Shown here piece by piece: positions 47,631 through 56,860 of a DNA stretch of 64,000 nt. This DNA is from Kribbella jejuensis (GTDB lineage Bacteria > Actinomycetota > Actinomycetes > Propionibacteriales > Kribbellaceae). A program made the translations under genes and the position numbers. The notes below the pieces were generated by a model that ran no database searches, was not told where the DNA came from, and saw nothing but the letters and a program-made list of their open reading frames with translations. How positions within the stretch are numbered: the first letter of the stretch is position 1; the number at the start of each line of letters is the position of its first letter. Location of the stretch: assembly GCF_006715085.1 (NCBI RefSeq), contig NZ_VFMM01000001.1, positions 3,782,001 through 3,846,000 of the forward strand. The letters are read 5' to 3'.

Positions 47631-47664
47631 GCCACCCACCCAGCGGCTGTCGGGGGTGGGTGGC
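47631..47664 (+). terminator. Hairpin terminator after the MFS exporter
   Basis: GCCACCCACC (47631-47640) pairs with GGTGGGTGGC (47655-47664), 13 bp after the exporter stop. It isolates the five-gene operon that begins at 47698 from upstream transcription. Confidence 0.78.
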
Positions 47665-47697
47665 AGGATTTGGGTACTGCCGGGTGTGAGGAGTGGT

Positions 47698-48987
47698 GTG
47701 GGTTCGTGGGACGTGGAACAGGTGCTTGGTCTGGCGTCTGATCCTGCGTCCGCGAAGGCCGGTCAGGGGCTGGCCCGCCCGGAGAAGTGGTCGTCCACCG
47801 GCGCGACCGACCGCGCCCTGTGGGGCCTGTGTCAGGGCAGCGGCAAACAGCCGTACCAAACAGCGGTCGAACTGGCCGGACCGGCGTACAAGTGTTCTTG
47901 TCCTTCGCGGAAGTTCCCGTGCAAGCATGCGCTCGGGTTGATGGTGTTGTGGGCGCGGGACGGGGTGCCGGCGGGGGAAGAGCCGGAGTGGGTGTCGGGG
48001 TGGATCGATCAGCGGGCGGCGCGGACGGAGCGGAAGCCGGGCGAGGTGGTGGATCCGGTGGCGGCGCAGGAGCGGGCGGCGCGGCGAGCGGATCGGGTTT
48101 CGGCGGGGCTGGCGGAGTTGGCGGGGTGGTTGGACGACCAGGTGCGCCAAGGGCTCGGCGCGTTCGACCAGCGCGCGTACGGCGAACTGAACCGGCTCGC
48201 CGCGCGCATGGTCGACGCACAGGCCCCCGGCGTGGCAGGCGCCGTACGCCGAGCGGCAAACGTCGTCGGACGCGGCCACGGCTGGCCGGGTGAACTACTC
48301 GAGGAGCTCTCGCTCATCCACCTGATCGTCTCGGCGCACGCGCACCTGCCCGACCTGCCACCGTCTCTCGCCGACACCGTGCAGACCCGCATCGGCTGGC
48401 CGACCGAAACCGCCCGGGTACTCGCGAACGGCGAGAAACTCCACGACGACTGGCTGATGCTCGGCCGCGTCGTCGAACCCGACGACCGGCTCACCGTCCG
48501 CCGCGTATGGTTGCGCGGAGCAACTACCGGGCGGATCGGGCTGATCCTCACCTTCGCCGCCGCCGGTCGCCCGCTCGACCCGCTCCCGGCCCGCCCCGGC
48601 GAGTACGTCCCCGGCGACCTCTCGTTCTACCCCGGCGCGCTCCCGATGCGCGCGCTCCTCACCCAGACCGATCCGCGGACCCCGGCCCCGCGCCCTACCG
48701 GTCGCACCGTCCGCCAGGCGTTGGCGTCGTACGTCGAAGCCCTCGCCGCCGATCCGTGGAACGAACGCTGGCCGCTCGTCCTGCAAGACGTCCGCCCCGC
48801 GCGCCACGGCGAGGGCTGGGCGCTGGTGGACGAAGCCGGCGACGGACTGGAGATCCAGGCCGGCTGGGATCCGCTGAAACTGCTCGCGGTGTCCGCCGGC
48901 GACCCGATCACCGTCGCCGCCGAGTGGAACCGCGCCGGCCTGCGGCCGATGACCTGCTGGCATCTCGACCGGCCGGTGACGCTGTGA
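47698..48987 (+). CDS. SWIM zinc-finger protein, first gene of the MoxR/VWA operon
   Basis: A 429-residue protein. A SWIM-type zinc site is seen as C66, C68, C75 and H77 (YKCSCPSRKFPCKHALGLM), a motif for DNA or protein contact. The rest is mostly helical with a beta-rich C-terminal third (VWLRGATTGRIGLILTFAAAGRPLDPL). GTG at 47698 with GAGGAG upstream is preferred over a frame extension to 47656. The gene overlaps the next by 4 nt (GTGA). SWIM proteins commonly accompany MoxR/VWA clusters. The precise role is unknown. Confidence 0.87.
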   Translation: MGSWDVEQVLGLASDPASAKAGQGLARPEKWSSTGATDRALWGLCQGSGKQPYQTAVELAGPAYKCSCPSRKFPCKHALGLMVLWARDGVPAGEEPEWVSGWIDQRAARTERKPGEVVDPVAAQERAARRADRVSAGLAELAGWLDDQVRQGLGAFDQRAYGELNRLAARMVDAQAPGVAGAVRRAANVVGRGHGWPGELLEELSLIHLIVSAHAHLPDLPPSLADTVQTRIGWPTETARVLANGEKLHDDWLMLGRVVEPDDRLTVRRVWLRGATTGRIGLILTFAAAGRPLDPLPARPGEYVPGDLSFYPGALPMRALLTQTDPRTPAPRPTGRTVRQALASYVEALAADPWNERWPLVLQDVRPARHGEGWALVDEAGDGLEIQAGWDPLKLLAVSAGDPITVAAEWNRAGLRPMTCWHLDRPVTL

Positions 48988-50387
48988 AGGGCTGGGACGG
49001 GCTGGTCAGCTCGATGCTGCTGGGCACGGACCGGCGCCCGGCGGACTTCGACGAGCTGCCGGAGCCGGTACGCGAACGCTTGGGCGACGGTGGTCTGCTC
49101 GATGCAGCCGCGCTCGCGACCCTGTACAAGCGGGCGGGGCGGAAACCGCTGCGCGACCTCAAGCCCTTGGAGGCGGCGGGTGGCGAGGACCGGCCGTTGC
49201 CGCGGTCCGGGGCGGTGCGGCGGTTGGCGGCGATGCTCGGCGGGTTCCAGACCGCGGCGCTGGGCGAATGGTTGCGGACGGCCGACGCGAACGGGTGGGG
49301 CGTACCGCCGGAGCAGTTGCCGGCGCTGGCGGACTTTGCGCGCAACAGGCCCGAGTACCGTCCGCTGGTGATCGCGGCGGCCGGCCGGCGGGCGCGCTGG
49401 TTGGCGGAACTGAACCCGGAGTGGCGGTTCCTGTACGCGGCGGATGTCGAGAGCAACGATCCGGAGTTGTGGACGCACGGCAACGCGGTCCAGCGGCGTA
49501 CCTGGTTGCGCGCGTTGCGTTGGCGGGATCCGGCGGCTGCGCGCGAGGCGCTCGCCGAGGTGTGGCCGAGCGAGTCGGCGCTGACGCGGACCGAGTTCCT
49601 CGGGTTGTTCGCCGAGGAGCTATCGGCGGCGGACGAGGAGTTCCTGGAGGCGGCGCTCGACGATCGGTCGCGGGAGGTACGCCGGGTCGCGGCGCGGCTG
49701 CTCGCGCGGTTGCCGGGGTCGCAGTACGGCGTACGGATGGCGGCTCGTTTGCATGCGCATCTCACGGCGACGCAGGGTGTGCTGGCGGTGGAGCTGCCGC
49801 GGACGCTGACGCAGTCGATGGAGCGCGACGGCATCGACTCCCAGAACCCGGAAGGCATTGGCAAACGGGCCTGGTGGTTCCACCAGATCGTTGCCAACAC
49901 ACCCCTTTCGGAGATGGATCTCACCTGGCTGCAACTGCCGGTCGAGGGTTGCGCCCCTGAGTTACTGCAGTCAGCCTGGACCGAAGCCACAATCCGCGAA
50001 GGCGCGGCGCAGTGGGCGCGGGAGCTGTTGGTGGCGAATGCCGACACGGGGAGTAGGAATCCGGCTGAGCTCCTGCGGCTGCTGCCGCGGGAGGAGTGGG
50101 CGCAGGCCGTCGAGGCGTTGCGGAGCACCGTGGATGTGACGGAGTTGGTGGGCGGATTGACGGTGCCGTGGCCGCCGGCGCTCGGCGCGATGATTCTTGA
50201 CCAGCTGGCAAAGGTCGGCACCAACCGGGCCTGGGCGCGGCTTGCGAGTATTGCCGCGCGGGCCGTACCACCCGACGTACTCGACCATCCGATCACCCGC
50301 GAACCCACCGGCGACGAGGACACCTGGCGCCGCCGCCTCGTGGAAACCCTGGCCTTCCGCCGTGAAATGTACGAGGAGCTGACATGA
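48984..50387 (+). CDS. Helical-repeat protein, DUF5691-like
   Basis: A 467-residue, almost entirely helical protein with HEAT-like pairs rich in Leu, Ala, Arg and Trp. A conserved-looking start is GWDGLVSSMLLGTDRRP and the core is RRTWLRALRWRDPAAAREALAEVWPSE...DDRSREVRRVAARLLARLP. I believe it matches DUF5691 (from memory). GTG at 48984 overlaps the SWIM stop, and its own stop overlaps the MoxR ATG. Its position makes it a candidate adaptor or substrate of the ATPase. Confidence 0.8.
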   Translation: MKGWDGLVSSMLLGTDRRPADFDELPEPVRERLGDGGLLDAAALATLYKRAGRKPLRDLKPLEAAGGEDRPLPRSGAVRRLAAMLGGFQTAALGEWLRTADANGWGVPPEQLPALADFARNRPEYRPLVIAAAGRRARWLAELNPEWRFLYAADVESNDPELWTHGNAVQRRTWLRALRWRDPAAAREALAEVWPSESALTRTEFLGLFAEELSAADEEFLEAALDDRSREVRRVAARLLARLPGSQYGVRMAARLHAHLTATQGVLAVELPRTLTQSMERDGIDSQNPEGIGKRAWWFHQIVANTPLSEMDLTWLQLPVEGCAPELLQSAWTEATIREGAAQWARELLVANADTGSRNPAELLRLLPREEWAQAVEALRSTVDVTELVGGLTVPWPPALGAMILDQLAKVGTNRAWARLASIAARAVPPDVLDHPITREPTGDEDTWRRRLVETLAFRREMYEELT

Positions 50388-51463
50388 CCGAGGTACTGCG
50401 CCCGCATGCGGAAGTCGAGTATGCCGACGAGTTGCGGGCTCTGCGTGCGAACGATGACAAACCACGCCCGCCCGCGTGGGAGCTGTCGCCGAGTGCGGTC
50501 GTCACGTATCTGCTCGGCGGGAAGGCGGGCGACACCGAGGTCTCCCCGAAGTACGTCGGTCCGCGCCGGCTGATCGAGGTCGCCGTCGCCACCCTCGCGA
50601 CCGACCGCGCGCTGCTGCTCCTCGGCGTACCGGGCACCGCGAAGACCTGGGTCAGCGAGCACCTGGCCGCGGCGATCAGCGGCGACTCCACCCTGCTCGT
50701 GCAAGGCACCGCGGGCACCGCCGAGGAAGCGATCCGCTACGGCTGGAACTACGCCCAGTTGATTGCCCAAGGCCCCAGTGAGGCGGCGTTGGTACCGAGC
50801 CCGGTGCAGCGCGCGATGACCGAGGCGAAGATCGCCCGGATCGAGGAACTGACCCGGATGCCGTCCGACGTGCAGGACGCGCTGATCACGATCCTGTCCG
50901 AGAAGACGCTGCCGATCGCCGAGCTGGCCACCGAAGTCCAAGCCCGCAAGGGTTTCAATGTCATTGCCACCGCCAACGATCGGGACAAAGGCATCAACGA
51001 ACTGTCCAGCGCACTGCGCCGCCGGTTCAACACGGTCGTCCTGCCGCTGCCCGATTCCGCCGAGGACGAGGTGGAGATCGTCTCCCGCCGGGTCGCGCAG
51101 CTCGGTTCCGCGCTCGAGCTGCCGCAGCCCGACGACGCGCTCGACGAGATCCGCCGGGTGGTGACGATCTTCCGCGAGCTCCGCTCCGGCCGCACCGAGG
51201 ACGGCCGGACGGCGGTCAAGTCCCCGTCCGGCACGCTCTCCACCGCCGAGGCGATCAGCGTCGTCACCGGCGGCATCGCGCTCGCAGCGCACTTCGGCGA
51301 CGGCGTACTGCGCCCCACTGACGTCGCCGGCGGCATCCTCGGCGCGGTGGTCAAGGACCCGTCGGCCGATCGTGTGGTCTGGTCGGAGTACCTCGAAACC
51401 GTCGTCCGGGAACGCGACGACTGGGCACCGTTCTACCGGGCCTGCCGAGAGATCTCCGGATGA
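50384..51463 (+). CDS. MoxR-family AAA+ ATPase
   Basis: A 359-residue AAA+ ATPase of the MoxR branch. Walker A is GVPGTAKT (81-88). Later are a Walker B-like stretch around IEELTRMPSDVQDALITILSEKTLPI, sensor-1 NVIATANDRDKGINEL and the arginine-rich ALRRRFN. MoxR ATPases work with VWA proteins as chaperone-like remodellers or metal-insertion factors. The VWA partner is the fifth gene of this operon. ATGA overlaps with both neighbours indicate tight stoichiometric expression. Confidence 0.94.
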   Translation: MTEVLRPHAEVEYADELRALRANDDKPRPPAWELSPSAVVTYLLGGKAGDTEVSPKYVGPRRLIEVAVATLATDRALLLLGVPGTAKTWVSEHLAAAISGDSTLLVQGTAGTAEEAIRYGWNYAQLIAQGPSEAALVPSPVQRAMTEAKIARIEELTRMPSDVQDALITILSEKTLPIAELATEVQARKGFNVIATANDRDKGINELSSALRRRFNTVVLPLPDSAEDEVEIVSRRVAQLGSALELPQPDDALDEIRRVVTIFRELRSGRTEDGRTAVKSPSGTLSTAEAISVVTGGIALAAHFGDGVLRPTDVAGGILGAVVKDPSADRVVWSEYLETVVRERDDWAPFYRACREISG

Positions 51464-53628
51464 CCGTTCACCTCCTCGGGATCCGCCACCACGGGCCGGG
51501 CTCGGCGCGCGCCGTCGCCACCGCGCTGGCCGAGCTCGCGCCGGACATCGTGCTGATCGAGGGGCCGCCGGAGGCGGACAAGCTGGTCGAGTTGGCCGCG
51601 TCGGAGGAGATGGAACCGCCGGTCGCGCTGCTCGCGTACGCCGTCGACGATTCGACCCGGGCGGCGTTCTGGCCGTTCGCCGTCTTCAGCCCGGAGTGGC
51701 AGGCGATCAAGTACGGGCTGGCCGCGGGGGTGCCGGTGCGGTTCTGCGACCTGCCCGCGGCGCAGCAGTTCGCGTCGTCGGGCGGGCGGTCCTCGTCGAT
51801 GGACCCGATCGGCACGCTGGCCGCGGCCGGTGGGTACGACGACCCGGAACGCTGGTGGGACGACGTGATCGAGTCCCGCCGCGACGGCGCCGAACCGTTC
51901 ACGGTGATCGCCGACGCGATGCGCGAACTCCGCCACGGCGAGGAGGCAACGGGCCGGGAAGCCCAGCGCGAGGCGTACATGCGGACCGTGATCCGCAAGG
52001 CCCAGCGCGAAGGGTTCGAGCGGATCGCCGTGGTCTGCGGCGCCTGGCACGTACCCGCCCTGGAGCTACCGTTGCCTCCGGCAACACATGACCAACGGAT
52101 CCTGAAAGGCCTGCCCAAGCGGAAGATCGCCTGCACTTGGGTCCCGTGGACGCACGGCCGGCTCGCGGCGACGAGCGGGTACGGCGCCGGCATCACCTCG
52201 CCTGGTTGGTACCACCATCTGTTCACCGCCCCTGACCAGATCACCACGCGCTGGCTGACGAAGGTAGCTCAGGTACTGCGTGCCGAGGACCTGCCCGTGT
52301 CGAGCGCGCACGTGATCGAAGCGGTCCGGCTCGCCGACACGCTCGCCGCCATGCGCGAACGTCCGCTCGCGGGCCTCAGCGAGGTCACCGAAGCCACGCG
52401 CGCAGTCCTCTGCGGCGGGAACGACGTACTTCTCGACCTCGTCACCCGCGAGGCGGTCGTGGGTGAACTGCTCGGATCGGTTCCCGGTGAGACGCCGCAG
52501 GCGCCGGTCGCGGCGGACTTCGCGGCGCACGCGCGGCGGTTGCGGATGAAACGGGACGCGACCGAGCGGGTGATCGAGCTCGACCTGCGGAAGCCGAACG
52601 ACCTCGACAAGTCCAGACTCCTGCACCGGTTGCGTATCCTCGGGGTGCACTGGGGCGTACCGGCCACGGACGAGCGCCGGGCCCAGGGCACGTTCCGCGA
52701 GATGTGGCGGTTGGCATGGGACCCCGGCCTGGAGGTGGAGCTCGTCGCGGCCGGTGCCCATGGTACGACCGTGCTCGGCGCCGCAACGACCGTGATGCTC
52801 AAGGCCGCCGACTCGACCACGCTGGCCGACGTCACTGCCGCGCTCGAGAAGTCGCTGCTCGCGGACCTCGCCGACGCGCTACCGCCTTTGCTGCAAGGCA
52901 TCGACACCCGCGCCGCGGCCGACGCCGACGTCGGGCACCTGATGGCGGCGCTCCCGTCGCTGGCACGGGCTTCGCGGTACGGCGACGTACGCGGAACCGA
53001 TACGGCCGGACTGGCCGCGGTCGCCGGGCGGATGGTGTCGCGGGTGTGTGCGGGCCTCGCACGGACCGTCCACGGACTCGATCCGGACGCCGCTGCCGCC
53101 GTACAGGAGCTGATCGACGGCGTCCAGGACGCGACCGCGTTGCTCGCCGAGGAGGTGCGGGCGGAGTGGCTGGACACCTTGCAGGGGTTGAGCGATCGCG
53201 CCTCGGTACCGCCGCTGATCCGCGGGCGGTTGACGCGGTTGATGCTGGACACGTCGCGGTTGCCGGATCATGAGGTAGAGCTTCGGCTTGGCAGGTCGCT
53301 GTCGCCCGGTACGCCGACGGCGGACGCGGCCGGGTACGTCGAGGGCTTCCTCGCCGGTGGCGGGTTGTTGCTGGTGCACGACGAGCGGTTGCTCGCGTTG
53401 GTCGACGCGTGGCTGGGTGGAATTCCGGACGACGCGTTCGTCGAGGTGTTGCCGTTGTTGCGGCGTACGTTCGGTACGTTCGCGGCGCCGGAACGCCGAT
53501 CGATCGGCGCCCGGGCGCGGGTGCTGGCCGACCCGTCGTCCGTTGTTGTTGCTGACGACAACGACCTGGACGCCGAGCTGGCGGTTGCGCCGTTGCCGGT
53601 GGTGGCGCGCTTGCTGGGGGTCGGATGA
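51460..53628 (+). CDS. DUF5682-like protein with TraB/ChaN-type motifs
   Basis: A 722-residue soluble protein. The N-terminal 240 residues carry LLGIRHHGPGSARAV, IVLIEGPPEADKLVEL and, about residue 195, VVCGAWHVPALELP. A G-x-RHHGP motif with a later GA-x-H motif is the pattern of the TraB/ChaN/EreA-like superfamily, whose members act as metallo- or esterase-like hydrolases. The large helical C-terminal part is unlike anything I know. DUF5682 is named from memory. Overlaps of 4 nt with the MoxR and VWA genes place it in their complex. Confidence 0.8.
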   Translation: MTVHLLGIRHHGPGSARAVATALAELAPDIVLIEGPPEADKLVELAASEEMEPPVALLAYAVDDSTRAAFWPFAVFSPEWQAIKYGLAAGVPVRFCDLPAAQQFASSGGRSSSMDPIGTLAAAGGYDDPERWWDDVIESRRDGAEPFTVIADAMRELRHGEEATGREAQREAYMRTVIRKAQREGFERIAVVCGAWHVPALELPLPPATHDQRILKGLPKRKIACTWVPWTHGRLAATSGYGAGITSPGWYHHLFTAPDQITTRWLTKVAQVLRAEDLPVSSAHVIEAVRLADTLAAMRERPLAGLSEVTEATRAVLCGGNDVLLDLVTREAVVGELLGSVPGETPQAPVAADFAAHARRLRMKRDATERVIELDLRKPNDLDKSRLLHRLRILGVHWGVPATDERRAQGTFREMWRLAWDPGLEVELVAAGAHGTTVLGAATTVMLKAADSTTLADVTAALEKSLLADLADALPPLLQGIDTRAAADADVGHLMAALPSLARASRYGDVRGTDTAGLAAVAGRMVSRVCAGLARTVHGLDPDAAAAVQELIDGVQDATALLAEEVRAEWLDTLQGLSDRASVPPLIRGRLTRLMLDTSRLPDHEVELRLGRSLSPGTPTADAAGYVEGFLAGGGLLLVHDERLLALVDAWLGGIPDDAFVEVLPLLRRTFGTFAAPERRSIGARARVLADPSSVVVADDNDLDAELAVAPLPVVARLLGVG

Positions 53629-54770
53629 ACGACGAGCGAATGCGCCGCTGGCGGCTGGTGCTCGGCTCCGAGGCGGAGGAGGAGACCGGTACGACGCTGT
53701 CGTCCCAGGACCGTTCCGTCGACGCCGCGTTGGCCGCGTTGTACGACGCCGGCGAGAGTTCCGGGACGCAGCGGGCCTCCGGGTTGGGGTCGTCCGCGCC
53801 GCGGGTGGCCCGATGGCTCGGCGACATCCGGCAGTACTTCCCGAGCACTGTCGTCCAGGTCATGCAGCGGGACGCCGTCGAGCGGCTCGGCATCACCCGG
53901 ATGCTGATGGAGCCGGAGCTGCTCGGCGCGGTCGAGCCCGACGTCCACCTGGTGACCACGCTGCTGGCGTTGAACGAGGTGATGCCGGAGGAGACCAAGC
54001 AGACCGCGCGCGAGGTGGTCGGCCGGGTCGTCGCCGAGCTCGAGGCGCGGCTGGCGGAGCGGACCCGCGCGGCCGTGACCGGCGCGCTCGACCGGGCCGG
54101 GCGGACGGCCCGGCCGCGGCATTCCGACATCGACTGGGACCGGACGATCCGGGCGAACCTCAAGCACTTCTCGCCGGCACTCGGGACGATCGTGCCGGAT
54201 CGGCTGGTCGGGTACGCGCGGCGCAACCACAGCGTGCAGCGGGACATCGTGCTCGCGATCGACCAGTCCGGGTCGATGGCGGAGTCGGTCGTGTATGCGT
54301 CGCTGTTCGGCGCGGTGCTCGGGTCGATCCGGACCTTGCGGACGTCGCTGGTCGTCTTCGACACGGCCGTCGTCGACCTGACCGATCAGCTGGAGGATCC
54401 GGTCGACGTGCTGTTCGGGACCCAGCTCGGCGGTGGGACGGACATCAACCGGGCGCTCGCGTACTGCGAGGCGCTGATCACCAAGCCCGCGGACACGGTA
54501 CTGGTGCTGATCTCGGACCTGTACGAGGGCGGCGTCCGGGAAGAGATGCTGCGGCGGACGCGTTCCTTGGTGGAGTCCGGCGTACAAGTGATCGCGCTGC
54601 TGGCGCTCGCGGACTCGGGTTCACCGTCGTACGACGCCGAGAACGCGGCCGCGCTGGCGGACCTCGGCGTACCGGCGTTCGCGTGTACTCCGGACAAGTT
54701 CCCCGACCTGATGGCCGCCGCCATCCGCCACGAGGACATCGGCGGCTGGGCGGCCACCAACATCACTTGA
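53625..54770 (+). CDS. VWA-domain protein (CoxE-like) of the MoxR operon
   Basis: A 381-residue protein. The N-terminal 200 residues are helical. The VWA domain begins IVLAIDQSGSMAES (about 210) with the MIDAS metal motif DxSGS, then GGTDINRAL and LVLISDLYEGG supply the remaining ligands. VWA proteins deliver targets to MoxR ATPases. It closes the five-gene operon. The next gene begins 10 bp later and may be co-transcribed. Confidence 0.92.
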   Translation: MNDERMRRWRLVLGSEAEEETGTTLSSQDRSVDAALAALYDAGESSGTQRASGLGSSAPRVARWLGDIRQYFPSTVVQVMQRDAVERLGITRMLMEPELLGAVEPDVHLVTTLLALNEVMPEETKQTAREVVGRVVAELEARLAERTRAAVTGALDRAGRTARPRHSDIDWDRTIRANLKHFSPALGTIVPDRLVGYARRNHSVQRDIVLAIDQSGSMAESVVYASLFGAVLGSIRTLRTSLVVFDTAVVDLTDQLEDPVDVLFGTQLGGGTDINRALAYCEALITKPADTVLVLISDLYEGGVREEMLRRTRSLVESGVQVIALLALADSGSPSYDAENAAALADLGVPAFACTPDKFPDLMAAAIRHEDIGGWAATNIT

Positions 54771-55539: not shown

Positions 55540-55880
55540 TCAGCGACCTCGAGGATGTCGATCGGGGTGTAGGGATCGGCCTCGGCGAAGCGGAGTGCCC
55601 AGCGGACCGCTTCCTCCTTGGAGTCGACGCGGATGATCGAGACGCCCGCGACCAGCTCCTTGGTCTCCGCGAACGGCCCGTCGATCACCCGAGGCTGCCC
55701 CGGCACCGGGAACGTCACCCGCGCCCCACGGGAGCTCGGCATCAGCCCCTCGCCGAGCACCAGCACCCCGGCCTGACGCATCTCCTCGAGCACCGCGTCC
55801 GCGCGCTCCAGGATCTCCGGATCCGGCGGCTTCCCGGCCTCCAGATTGTCGTTGGTCTTGTGCAGCAGCATGTACCTCAT
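55536..55880 (-). CDS. YCII-related (DGPF-type) protein
   Basis: A 114-residue DGPF/YCII-family protein (MRYMLLHKTNDNLEAGKPPD...RVIDGPFAETKELVAGVSIIRVDSKEEAVRWALRFAEAD). ATG at 55880 is used. It overlaps the stop of the aldo/keto reductase gene by 4 nt, and an upstream extension lies inside that gene. It resembles the YCII-type gene at 4815 in family but is not a recent duplicate. Function unknown. Confidence 0.87.
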   Translation of the reverse strand: MRYMLLHKTNDNLEAGKPPDPEILERADAVLEEMRQAGVLVLGEGLMPSSRGARVTFPVPGQPRVIDGPFAETKELVAGVSIIRVDSKEEAVRWALRFAEADPYTPIDILEVAD

Positions 55881-56827
55881 AGCGCTGACCTTAGTGCGCT
55901 CCAGAACGCCGGCGGGATCTCGAGCGCATGCCACGCCACCGCGTCGGCGATCTCGCGCGGGCTGCGTGCACCCACGAGGACGGCCGGTACGGCGGGATGC
56001 GTCAGCGGGAACTGCAGCGCAGCGGCCAGCAGGGGTACGTCGTACCGTCGGCAGAGGTCACGCAGTACGTCGATCCGCCGCAGTACGTCCCGCGGGACCC
56101 GCGCGTACCCGTCGGGCGTGCCGTGTGCGGTTTCCGCGAGTACCCCGCCCTGGAACACGCCGGCCGCCAGCACCGCGACGCCGTACTTCTCGCACAACGG
56201 CAGCAGTTCGTCGGCGCCGGTCTGGTCGAGCAGCGTGTACCGCCCGGCGAGCAGGACGAGGTCCGGGCCGCCGTCGGTCTCGCGCAGGAACCGCGCGGCG
56301 ACGTCGGCGTGGTTGACGCCCAGCGAGATCGCCCGGATCGTGCCGCGCCCGCGCAGTTCGCAGAGCGCCCGGAACGCCTCGGTCGCCGCACGTGGGAAGT
56401 CCAACTCCGGATCGTGGACGTGGAGCACGTCGACGCGATCGATCCCCATCCGCTCCAGGCTCGCTTCGAACGAGCGGATCGTCGCGGCGTACGAGTAATC
56501 GAGCCGCGGTCCGACCCTGGGCGGTGGCTCCGCCCAGATCGGCTGCCCGTCCGGGCCGCCCGGCTCGATCAGCCGGCCGACCTTCGTACACAGGACGAAC
56601 TCGTGCCGCGGCCGCCCGCGGAGCGCGAGCCCGGCGCGCTGCTCGGACAGGCCGTACCCGTACAGGGGCGCGGTGTCGAAGAGCCGCACGCCGAGCTCCC
56701 AGGCGCGATCGATCGTCGCCACCGCCTGCCGCTGCGGAACGGGTGCGAACATCCCGCCGACGGACGCGAGCCCCAGGCCCAGCTCACTGACCCGCAACCC
56801 CGTCCGCCCCAGCTCCACCGTCCGCAT
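55877..56827 (-). CDS. Aldo/keto reductase
   Basis: A 316-residue NADPH-dependent TIM-barrel reductase. The catalytic D and Y are in VRLFDTAPLYGYGLSEQRAG, and the catalytic lysine in EFVLCTKVGRLIEPGG. IDRVDVLHVHDPE shows a His-containing substrate loop. It resembles the L-fucose/D-threo-aldose dehydrogenase branch, but substrate is unproven. It is coupled to the YCII-type gene that follows. Confidence 0.9.
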   Translation of the reverse strand: MRTVELGRTGLRVSELGLGLASVGGMFAPVPQRQAVATIDRAWELGVRLFDTAPLYGYGLSEQRAGLALRGRPRHEFVLCTKVGRLIEPGGPDGQPIWAEPPPRVGPRLDYSYAATIRSFEASLERMGIDRVDVLHVHDPELDFPRAATEAFRALCELRGRGTIRAISLGVNHADVAARFLRETDGGPDLVLLAGRYTLLDQTGADELLPLCEKYGVAVLAAGVFQGGVLAETAHGTPDGYARVPRDVLRRIDVLRDLCRRYDVPLLAAALQFPLTHPAVPAVLVGARSPREIADAVAWHALEIPPAFWSALRSAL

Positions 56828-56860
56828 ACCTCCAGACGGTAGAAGGCGCCACCGACAAGA

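Follow-up and report, generated by a model that had tools for sequence, protein, structure and literature searches.

The five-gene operon at positions 47698-54770 of the DNA analysed here, a 64,000-nucleotide stretch of Kribbella jejuensis that we call the window (GCF_006715085.1, NZ_VFMM01000001.1, positions 3,782,001-3,846,000 of the forward strand), probably belongs to a widespread MoxR-DUF5682-VWA system, represented in Escherichia coli by YehL-YehM-YehP, that acts in the DNA-damage response. Our computations show that the five genes form a recurrent, linked set, that the modelled N-terminal domain of the DUF5682 protein carries the TIKI/TraB/EreA/ChaN fold and its motifs, and that a promoter of the PafBC type precedes the system in many relatives. 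We regard the operon as a variant of the MoxR-VWA machines, assembled from known gene families around a predicted hydrolase. Near-core in streptomycetes and Kribbella, the operon also has relatives in E. coli, and no function for it was found in the literature searched. With an enzyme fold for the third core protein and a damage promoter, it could be tested directly as part of how bacteria respond to DNA damage, and MoxR-VWA chaperones would gain a new kind of client.

Linkage and distribution of the five genes

All five genes lie on the + strand and successive genes share exactly 4 nucleotides, as a first-pass annotation of the sequence had read them, and the families it named are borne out by Pfam matches:

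47698..48987, + strand: SWIM zinc-finger protein, 429 residues, GTG start (PF04434, 24 bits, cut-off 19.6)
47893..47928, + strand: SWIM zinc-binding motif CxC...CxH, residues 66-77, found in 78 of 83 homologues
48984..50387, + strand: DUF5691 helical protein, 467 residues, GTG start (PF18944, E 3e-118)
50384..51463, + strand: MoxR AAA+ ATPase of the YehL subfamily, 359 residues (AAA_5, 1.6e-37; YehL, 42% identity over 356 residues)
50624..50647, + strand: MoxR Walker A motif GVPGTAKT, residues 81-88 (G81, P83, G84, T85 and K87 invariant in 123 homologues)
51460..53628, + strand: DUF5682 protein, 722 residues, homologue of E. coli YehM (PF18934, E 3e-264; YehM, 28% over 573 residues)
53625..54770, + strand: VWA protein of the CoxE type, 381 residues, YehP homologue (PF05762, VWA_CoxE, 3e-55; YehP, 37% over 366 residues)
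54261..54275, + strand: metal-ion-dependent adhesion site (MIDAS) of the VWA protein, DxSGS, residues 213-217, with T272 and D298 (at least 98% conserved in 122 homologues)

Alignments of homologues show that the MoxR P loop and the VWA MIDAS are both retained, and the MoxR/VWA pairing proposed in the first-pass annotation holds; the GxRHHGP, GAWH and MIDAS motifs that it pointed out are present and strongly conserved in 122-129 relatives. Purifying selection acts on all five genes when they are compared with their Kribbella homologues (ratio of nonsynonymous to synonymous substitution rates about 0.06-0.24), and none of the five proteins has a clear transmembrane segment. The Walker B site of the MoxR protein (window 50843-50848) reads EE (E154-E155), not the usual DE, and is invariant in 123 homologues; this could be a signature of the YehL subfamily. 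Upstream of the SWIM gene, where a terminator had been thought to isolate the operon, lies a GC-rich hairpin (approximately 47632-47664; z -1.8) that has no T tract, and a terminator scan called no terminator there.

Across 85,000 species genomes, at least 584 relatives were returned, and 80 loci were kept for analysis. Among these, the same five genes occur together in Actinomycetota, Cyanobacteria, Thiofilum and one Bacteroidia metagenome-assembled genome. DUF5682 was found in 21 of 296 actinobacterial genomes and DUF5691 above its cut-off in 18, all 18 of which also encode DUF5682 only a few kilobases away (Fisher p 5e-26). The five families are linked, not scattered, and scattering is what the first-pass annotation had named beforehand as evidence against itself. 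Since DUF5682 is present in all 38 Kribbella genomes and in 118 of 121 Streptomycetaceae genomes, and since the neighbourhood of the operon is mostly preserved across Kribbella, the module is a core gene set in these two lineages and not a mobile island.

The module consists of two sub-modules, SWIM-DUF5691 and MoxR-DUF5682-VWA, because DUF5682 and VWA share a single open frame at several loci, SWIM and DUF5691 do so in Hymenobacter and at locus L168, and most streptomycete loci have the SWIM-DUF5691 block divergent from the MoxR-DUF5682-VWA block. Over 58 non-Kribbella five-gene loci, the median identity to the window is 77% for MoxR, 67% for VWA, 54% for DUF5682, 43% for SWIM and 34% for DUF5691, and the two lowest identities belong to SWIM and DUF5691 at every one of the 58. 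From this faster divergence we infer that MoxR-DUF5682-VWA may be a conserved engine and SWIM/DUF5691 a diversifying recognition half; the roles of adaptor for DUF5691 and recogniser for SWIM, suggested earlier, would fit for the same reason.

In Kribbella steppae (L052, 8664-10000) a 1.3-kb insertion at the MoxR/DUF5682 junction contains an open frame that by eye resembles TnpB. A Methylosinus plasmid has its VWA gene divided among three frames (L153, 11226-12331), and in Rhizobium sp. Kim5 the SWIM gene is divided between two (L154, 5117-6462); both are likely broken copies.

Rapid divergence of the recognition-side genes would also suit an anti-phage or altruistic-death function, in which a thresholded MoxR-VWA conflict system would release DUF5682 as a toxic hydrolase once SWIM/DUF5691 sensed an invader, the damage promoter merely priming it. 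MoxR-vWA pairs do occur in proposed conflict systems of multicellular bacteria (PMC7159879), the five-gene set is found on annotated plasmids of Rhizobium, Methylosinus and Hymenobacter, and extra, divergent copies are frequent in Streptomycetaceae. However, near-universal presence and largely conserved Kribbella flanks are unlike the patchy occurrence of defence islands, no PADLOC 2.0 family scored above chance level (best E 0.004), the VWA protein has no variable effector, and of 50,697 phage records searched a single one encodes DUF5682. We consider a defence function unlikely. The phage record in question, from the human gut (MT835988.1, 10560-12758), encodes a DUF5682 protein of 27% identity.

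In E. coli K-12, as in the window, the MoxR, DUF5682 and VWA homologues are encoded by adjacent genes (yehL, yehM and yehP; BLASTP E 1e-84, 3e-36 and 3e-79). Next to them, yehQ also encodes a SWIM finger (PF04434), and its alignment with the window SWIM protein gives a marginal score (hhalign P 0.0017, probability 16%). With these homologues, and with YehL already the namesake of a MoxR subfamily (PMC3893208), the term "undescribed" used in the first-pass annotation was too strong. The literature searched contained no functional study of yehLMPQ and no mention of DUF5682 or DUF5691.

Three subtypes can be told apart. Subtype 1 comprises the DUF5691-bearing loci; the window, which is without DUF4132/WGR and has DUF5691 in that slot, is one of them. 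Subtype 2 has DUF4132, often with WGR (E. coli, Agrobacterium vitis and some actinobacteria), and in subtype 3 VWA lies ahead of MoxR and neither DUF5691 nor DUF4132 was detected. No DUF4132-like match was found in nine DUF5691 loci scanned, nor DUF5691 in DUF4132 loci, and in the E. coli-like subtype DUF4132 appears to take the place of DUF5691, a point absent from the first-pass annotation. Comparisons of DUF5691 with DUF4132, with the C-terminal half of DUF5682 and with YehQ detected no remote homology. On the conjugative IncF plasmid NZ_CP103756 of E. coli (L156), an IS26-flanked chromosomal yeh segment adjoins CTX-M-15 and further resistance genes.

A PafBC-type promoter upstream of the system in many relatives

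The motif tTGTCRgtg-8-TannnT drives RecA-independent damage genes (PMC5656591); PafBC acts through this RecA-NDp motif (PMC8223512) and is activated by single-stranded DNA (PMC11804915). We searched the 150 bp upstream of SWIM in 65 actinobacterial loci for the 12-position motif TTGTCRGTG-N8-TAnnnT. A site matching all 12 positions precedes SWIM in 17 of the 65 loci (0.006 expected) and one matching at least 11 in 30 (0.06 expected), the latter spread over 15 of 32 genus-level groups; a divergent MoxR gene is preceded by 11/12 sites in 10 loci. Because the loci share kinship, these counts are not independent and their p-values overstate the case, yet the effect is still large. Four complete streptomycete genomes contain 21-40 perfect sites each, compared to 0-1 in a reversed control, and in all four a perfect site lies at the SWIM-operon promoter. 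Loci of subtypes 2 and 3 have perfect sites too, mostly ahead of DUF4132 or the first gene. This promoter in the relatives is new here and had no place in the first-pass annotation, and for the actinobacterial relatives that carry a site the motif counts make the damage link well supported. In the main texts of two papers, searched for MoxR/SWIM, the operon genes were not found listed as PafBC targets.

The window itself has the following site:

47647..47669, + strand: degenerate PafBC/RecA-NDp-like promoter site, CTGTCGGGG-N8-CAGGAT, 9 of 12 consensus positions

In an alignment of other Kribbella, the homologous position reaches up to 10/12. The window copy may be under PafBC control; given the degeneracy of its own site, we extend this proposal to it from the relatives. 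The K. jejuensis genome contains 12 perfect RecA-NDp sites, including those before rarA, xseA, uvrA and a DnaQ/GIY-YIG gene, and its recA has a 10/12 site. It also encodes pafB/pafC-like genes, a WYL protein and an HTH_PafC-WYL protein, near a Pup-ligase/Dop-family gene.

One of the 12 perfect sites, at window 56836-56858 (- strand), lies 8 nucleotides before the start codon of the aldo/keto reductase gene adjoining the operon (55877-56827, - strand), which is probably damage-inducible and leaderless. Another perfect site in this genome precedes a gene for a WYL-domain regulator (L205, 1080-1811), possibly a second-tier damage regulator.

Outside Actinobacteria the evidence for damage control is thinner. 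In Deinococcus, depletion of DdrO raises DUF4132/WGR genes, and a LexA-regulon link around MolR has been mentioned (both PMC8533742). LexA patterns were sought as well: the actinobacterial box GAACN4GTTC does not occur in the window and is scattered elsewhere, and at the operon no LexA pattern was found in the Rhizobium, Agrobacterium, Methylosinus and Thiofilum loci. An E. coli CTG-N10-CAG box lies 25 nucleotides ahead of yehF, but is not significant alone, since 14 such patterns occur within 23 kb.

Fold and motifs of the DUF5682 protein

The features of the DUF5682 protein on which its assignment rests all lie in the N-terminal part:

51460..52089, + strand: N-terminal domain of predicted TIKI/TraB/EreA/ChaN fold, residues 1-210 (AlphaFold model and structure matches)
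51478..51498, + strand: motif 1, GIRHHGP (G7xxH10), with H10 and H11 in 127 of 127 covering sequences; aligned with TraB-family GxxH
51559..51561, + strand: conserved Glu34, in 127 of 127 covering sequences
51967..51981, + strand: RExxM motif, residues 170-174 (R170, E171 and M174 invariant in 129 sequences); aligned with TraB-family RNxxW
52039..52050, + strand: GAWH motif, G194xxH197 (G194 and H197 invariant in 129 sequences); aligned with TraB-family GALH

The AlphaFold model of residues 1-262 is confident, with a predicted local distance difference test score of 86.6. With the N-terminal domain as query, VIA-align placed a Tetrahymena complex IV subunit, ChaN, HopBA1, EreC, Ere-like proteins and RRSP at ranks 1-12 (Z 6.0-10.0), and unrelated folds begin at Z 5.6. 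Apart from RRSP and the Ere proteins, we take these matches (e.g. the Tetrahymena chain, ChaN and HopBA1) to be members of the TIKI/TraB/EreA/ChaN superfamily. RRSP and Ere belong to this fold (PMC6254334). A fold search with the full-length protein was dominated by helical repeats, its C-terminal half being a helical-repeat-like scaffold, and the superfamily matches came from the N-terminal domain alone. A solved-structure search by sequence gave nothing convincing. All four motifs are in register in a TraB/YbaP profile alignment, and the overall His/Glu pattern resembles both the 2His/2Glu site known from RRSP and the His-Glu pair in Ere enzymes. Structure prediction, fold search and profile alignment point to DUF5682 being TraB/ChaN/EreA-like, as first proposed, and the fold and motifs therefore support the earlier guess that it is the effector. 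A fold unrelated to TraB/ChaN, which the first-pass annotation had also named as evidence against itself, is not what these searches returned. DUF5682 may be a cytoplasmic hydrolase, either a peptidase or an esterase.

Could DUF5682 be a structural adaptor and not an enzyme? The operon would then encode a general protein-quality chaperone resembling the RavA-ViaA chaperone complex of E. coli (PMC10585395), and the scaffold-like C-terminal half would suit such a part. The His, Glu and Arg residues of the TIKI site are, however, conserved in 98-100% of 129 sequences, as expected for catalysis, which counts against a non-enzymatic DUF5682. We consider this explanation highly improbable.

Alternatively, the MoxR-VWA pair could serve metal or cofactor insertion, supplying DUF5682 or a different enzyme with a metal or haem. 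ChaN, one of the structural matches, is described as haem-binding and the operon VWA falls in the CoxE family; moreover, NorQ/NorD (PMC9976466) and CoxD/CoxE (PMC3893208) mature metalloenzymes, and E. coli MolR has been linked to molybdate (PMC8533742). Against this, insertion does not predict a damage promoter, the DUF5682 motifs match those of TIKI hydrolases, and the recurrent neighbours, judged by eye, are only lineage-specific housekeeping genes (e.g. sucC/sucD and a pcrA-like gene), with no metalloenzyme or cofactor gene among them. We regard such a role as quite unlikely.

Proposed mechanism and comparison with known systems

In the damage-response reading that we prefer, single-stranded DNA arising from damage would activate PafBC, which in turn would induce the operon. 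Powered by ATP, the MoxR ring together with the VWA protein would load DUF5682, assemble it or activate it; DUF5682 would act as a cytoplasmic peptidase or esterase, and the SWIM and DUF5691 proteins would deliver it to its target or trigger, the choice of target perhaps lying with these two fast-evolving proteins. A more specific version, which we consider improbable and of which we infer every molecular step, would make the system the bacterial equivalent of machines such as SPRTN/Wss1 with Cdc48, which cleave proteins at sites of damage. Here, after DNA damage, SWIM/DUF5691 (WGR-DUF4132/SWIM in subtype 2) would locate proteins that are stuck on DNA or sit at breaks, for the MoxR-VWA ring to pass on to a TIKI-fold DUF5682 peptidase.

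Several observations weigh against the damage-response reading. Of the 65 actinobacterial loci, 35 have no site of at least 11/12, and the 9/12 site of the window is unconvincing alone: when 150-bp stretches are drawn at random from the window, 4.2% reach a score of 9. Simple patterns revealed no damage-type site in the alphaproteobacterial or Thiofilum loci. On the side of the enzyme, the top Foldseek match is the same Tetrahymena chain but weak (best E 0.012), and the profile alignment ties DUF5682 to TraB with a marginal score (probability 12-19%, P about 0.002, similar in two profile versions). Furthermore, some TIKI-fold proteins are not hydrolases; ChaN binds haem. Taken as a whole, the interpretation given in the first-pass annotation is partly supported.

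Like the window, the MoxR-vWA ternary conflict systems combine a MoxR ATPase and a CoxE-type vWA protein with a third core component (VMAP, iSTAND, beta-propeller; PMC7159879). The window has this MoxR and vWA pair, its MoxR protein scoring 26.7 bits for bpMoxR, just below the 27-bit cut-off, and none of its five operon proteins contains a VMAP, iSTAND or beta-propeller domain. It differs in that the third component is DUF5682, the vWA protein is short, conserved and without an effector tail, distribution is near-core in two lineages, and relatives have a DNA-damage promoter. CoxD/CoxE, NorQ/NorD and RavA/ViaA share with the window a MoxR ATPase and a VWA partner that remodel a client, and unlike it are without SWIM/DUF5691. 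To our knowledge, none of these three pairs has a dedicated hydrolase-fold partner.

Residues 1-210 of DUF5682 share with the TIKI/TraB/EreA/ChaN superfamily the predicted fold and the motif order GxxH...E...RxxxM/W...GxxH, whereas the protein as a whole is set apart by its predicted cytoplasmic location, its 722 residues, its long helical C-terminal half and its tie to an AAA+ machine. The E. coli yehL-yehM-yehP-yehQ cluster resembles the window in having MoxR (42%), DUF5682 (28%) and VWA (37%) homologues beside a SWIM gene. Its order, MoxR-DUF5682-VWA-SWIM, is unlike that of the window, it lies in the molR region with DUF4132 (yehI) and WGR (yehF) where the window has DUF5691, and YehQ is larger than the window SWIM protein and not clearly alignable with it outside the finger. 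With the PafBC regulon of Actinobacteria, finally, the system shares the RecA-NDp promoter motif, which stands upstream of it in many genera.

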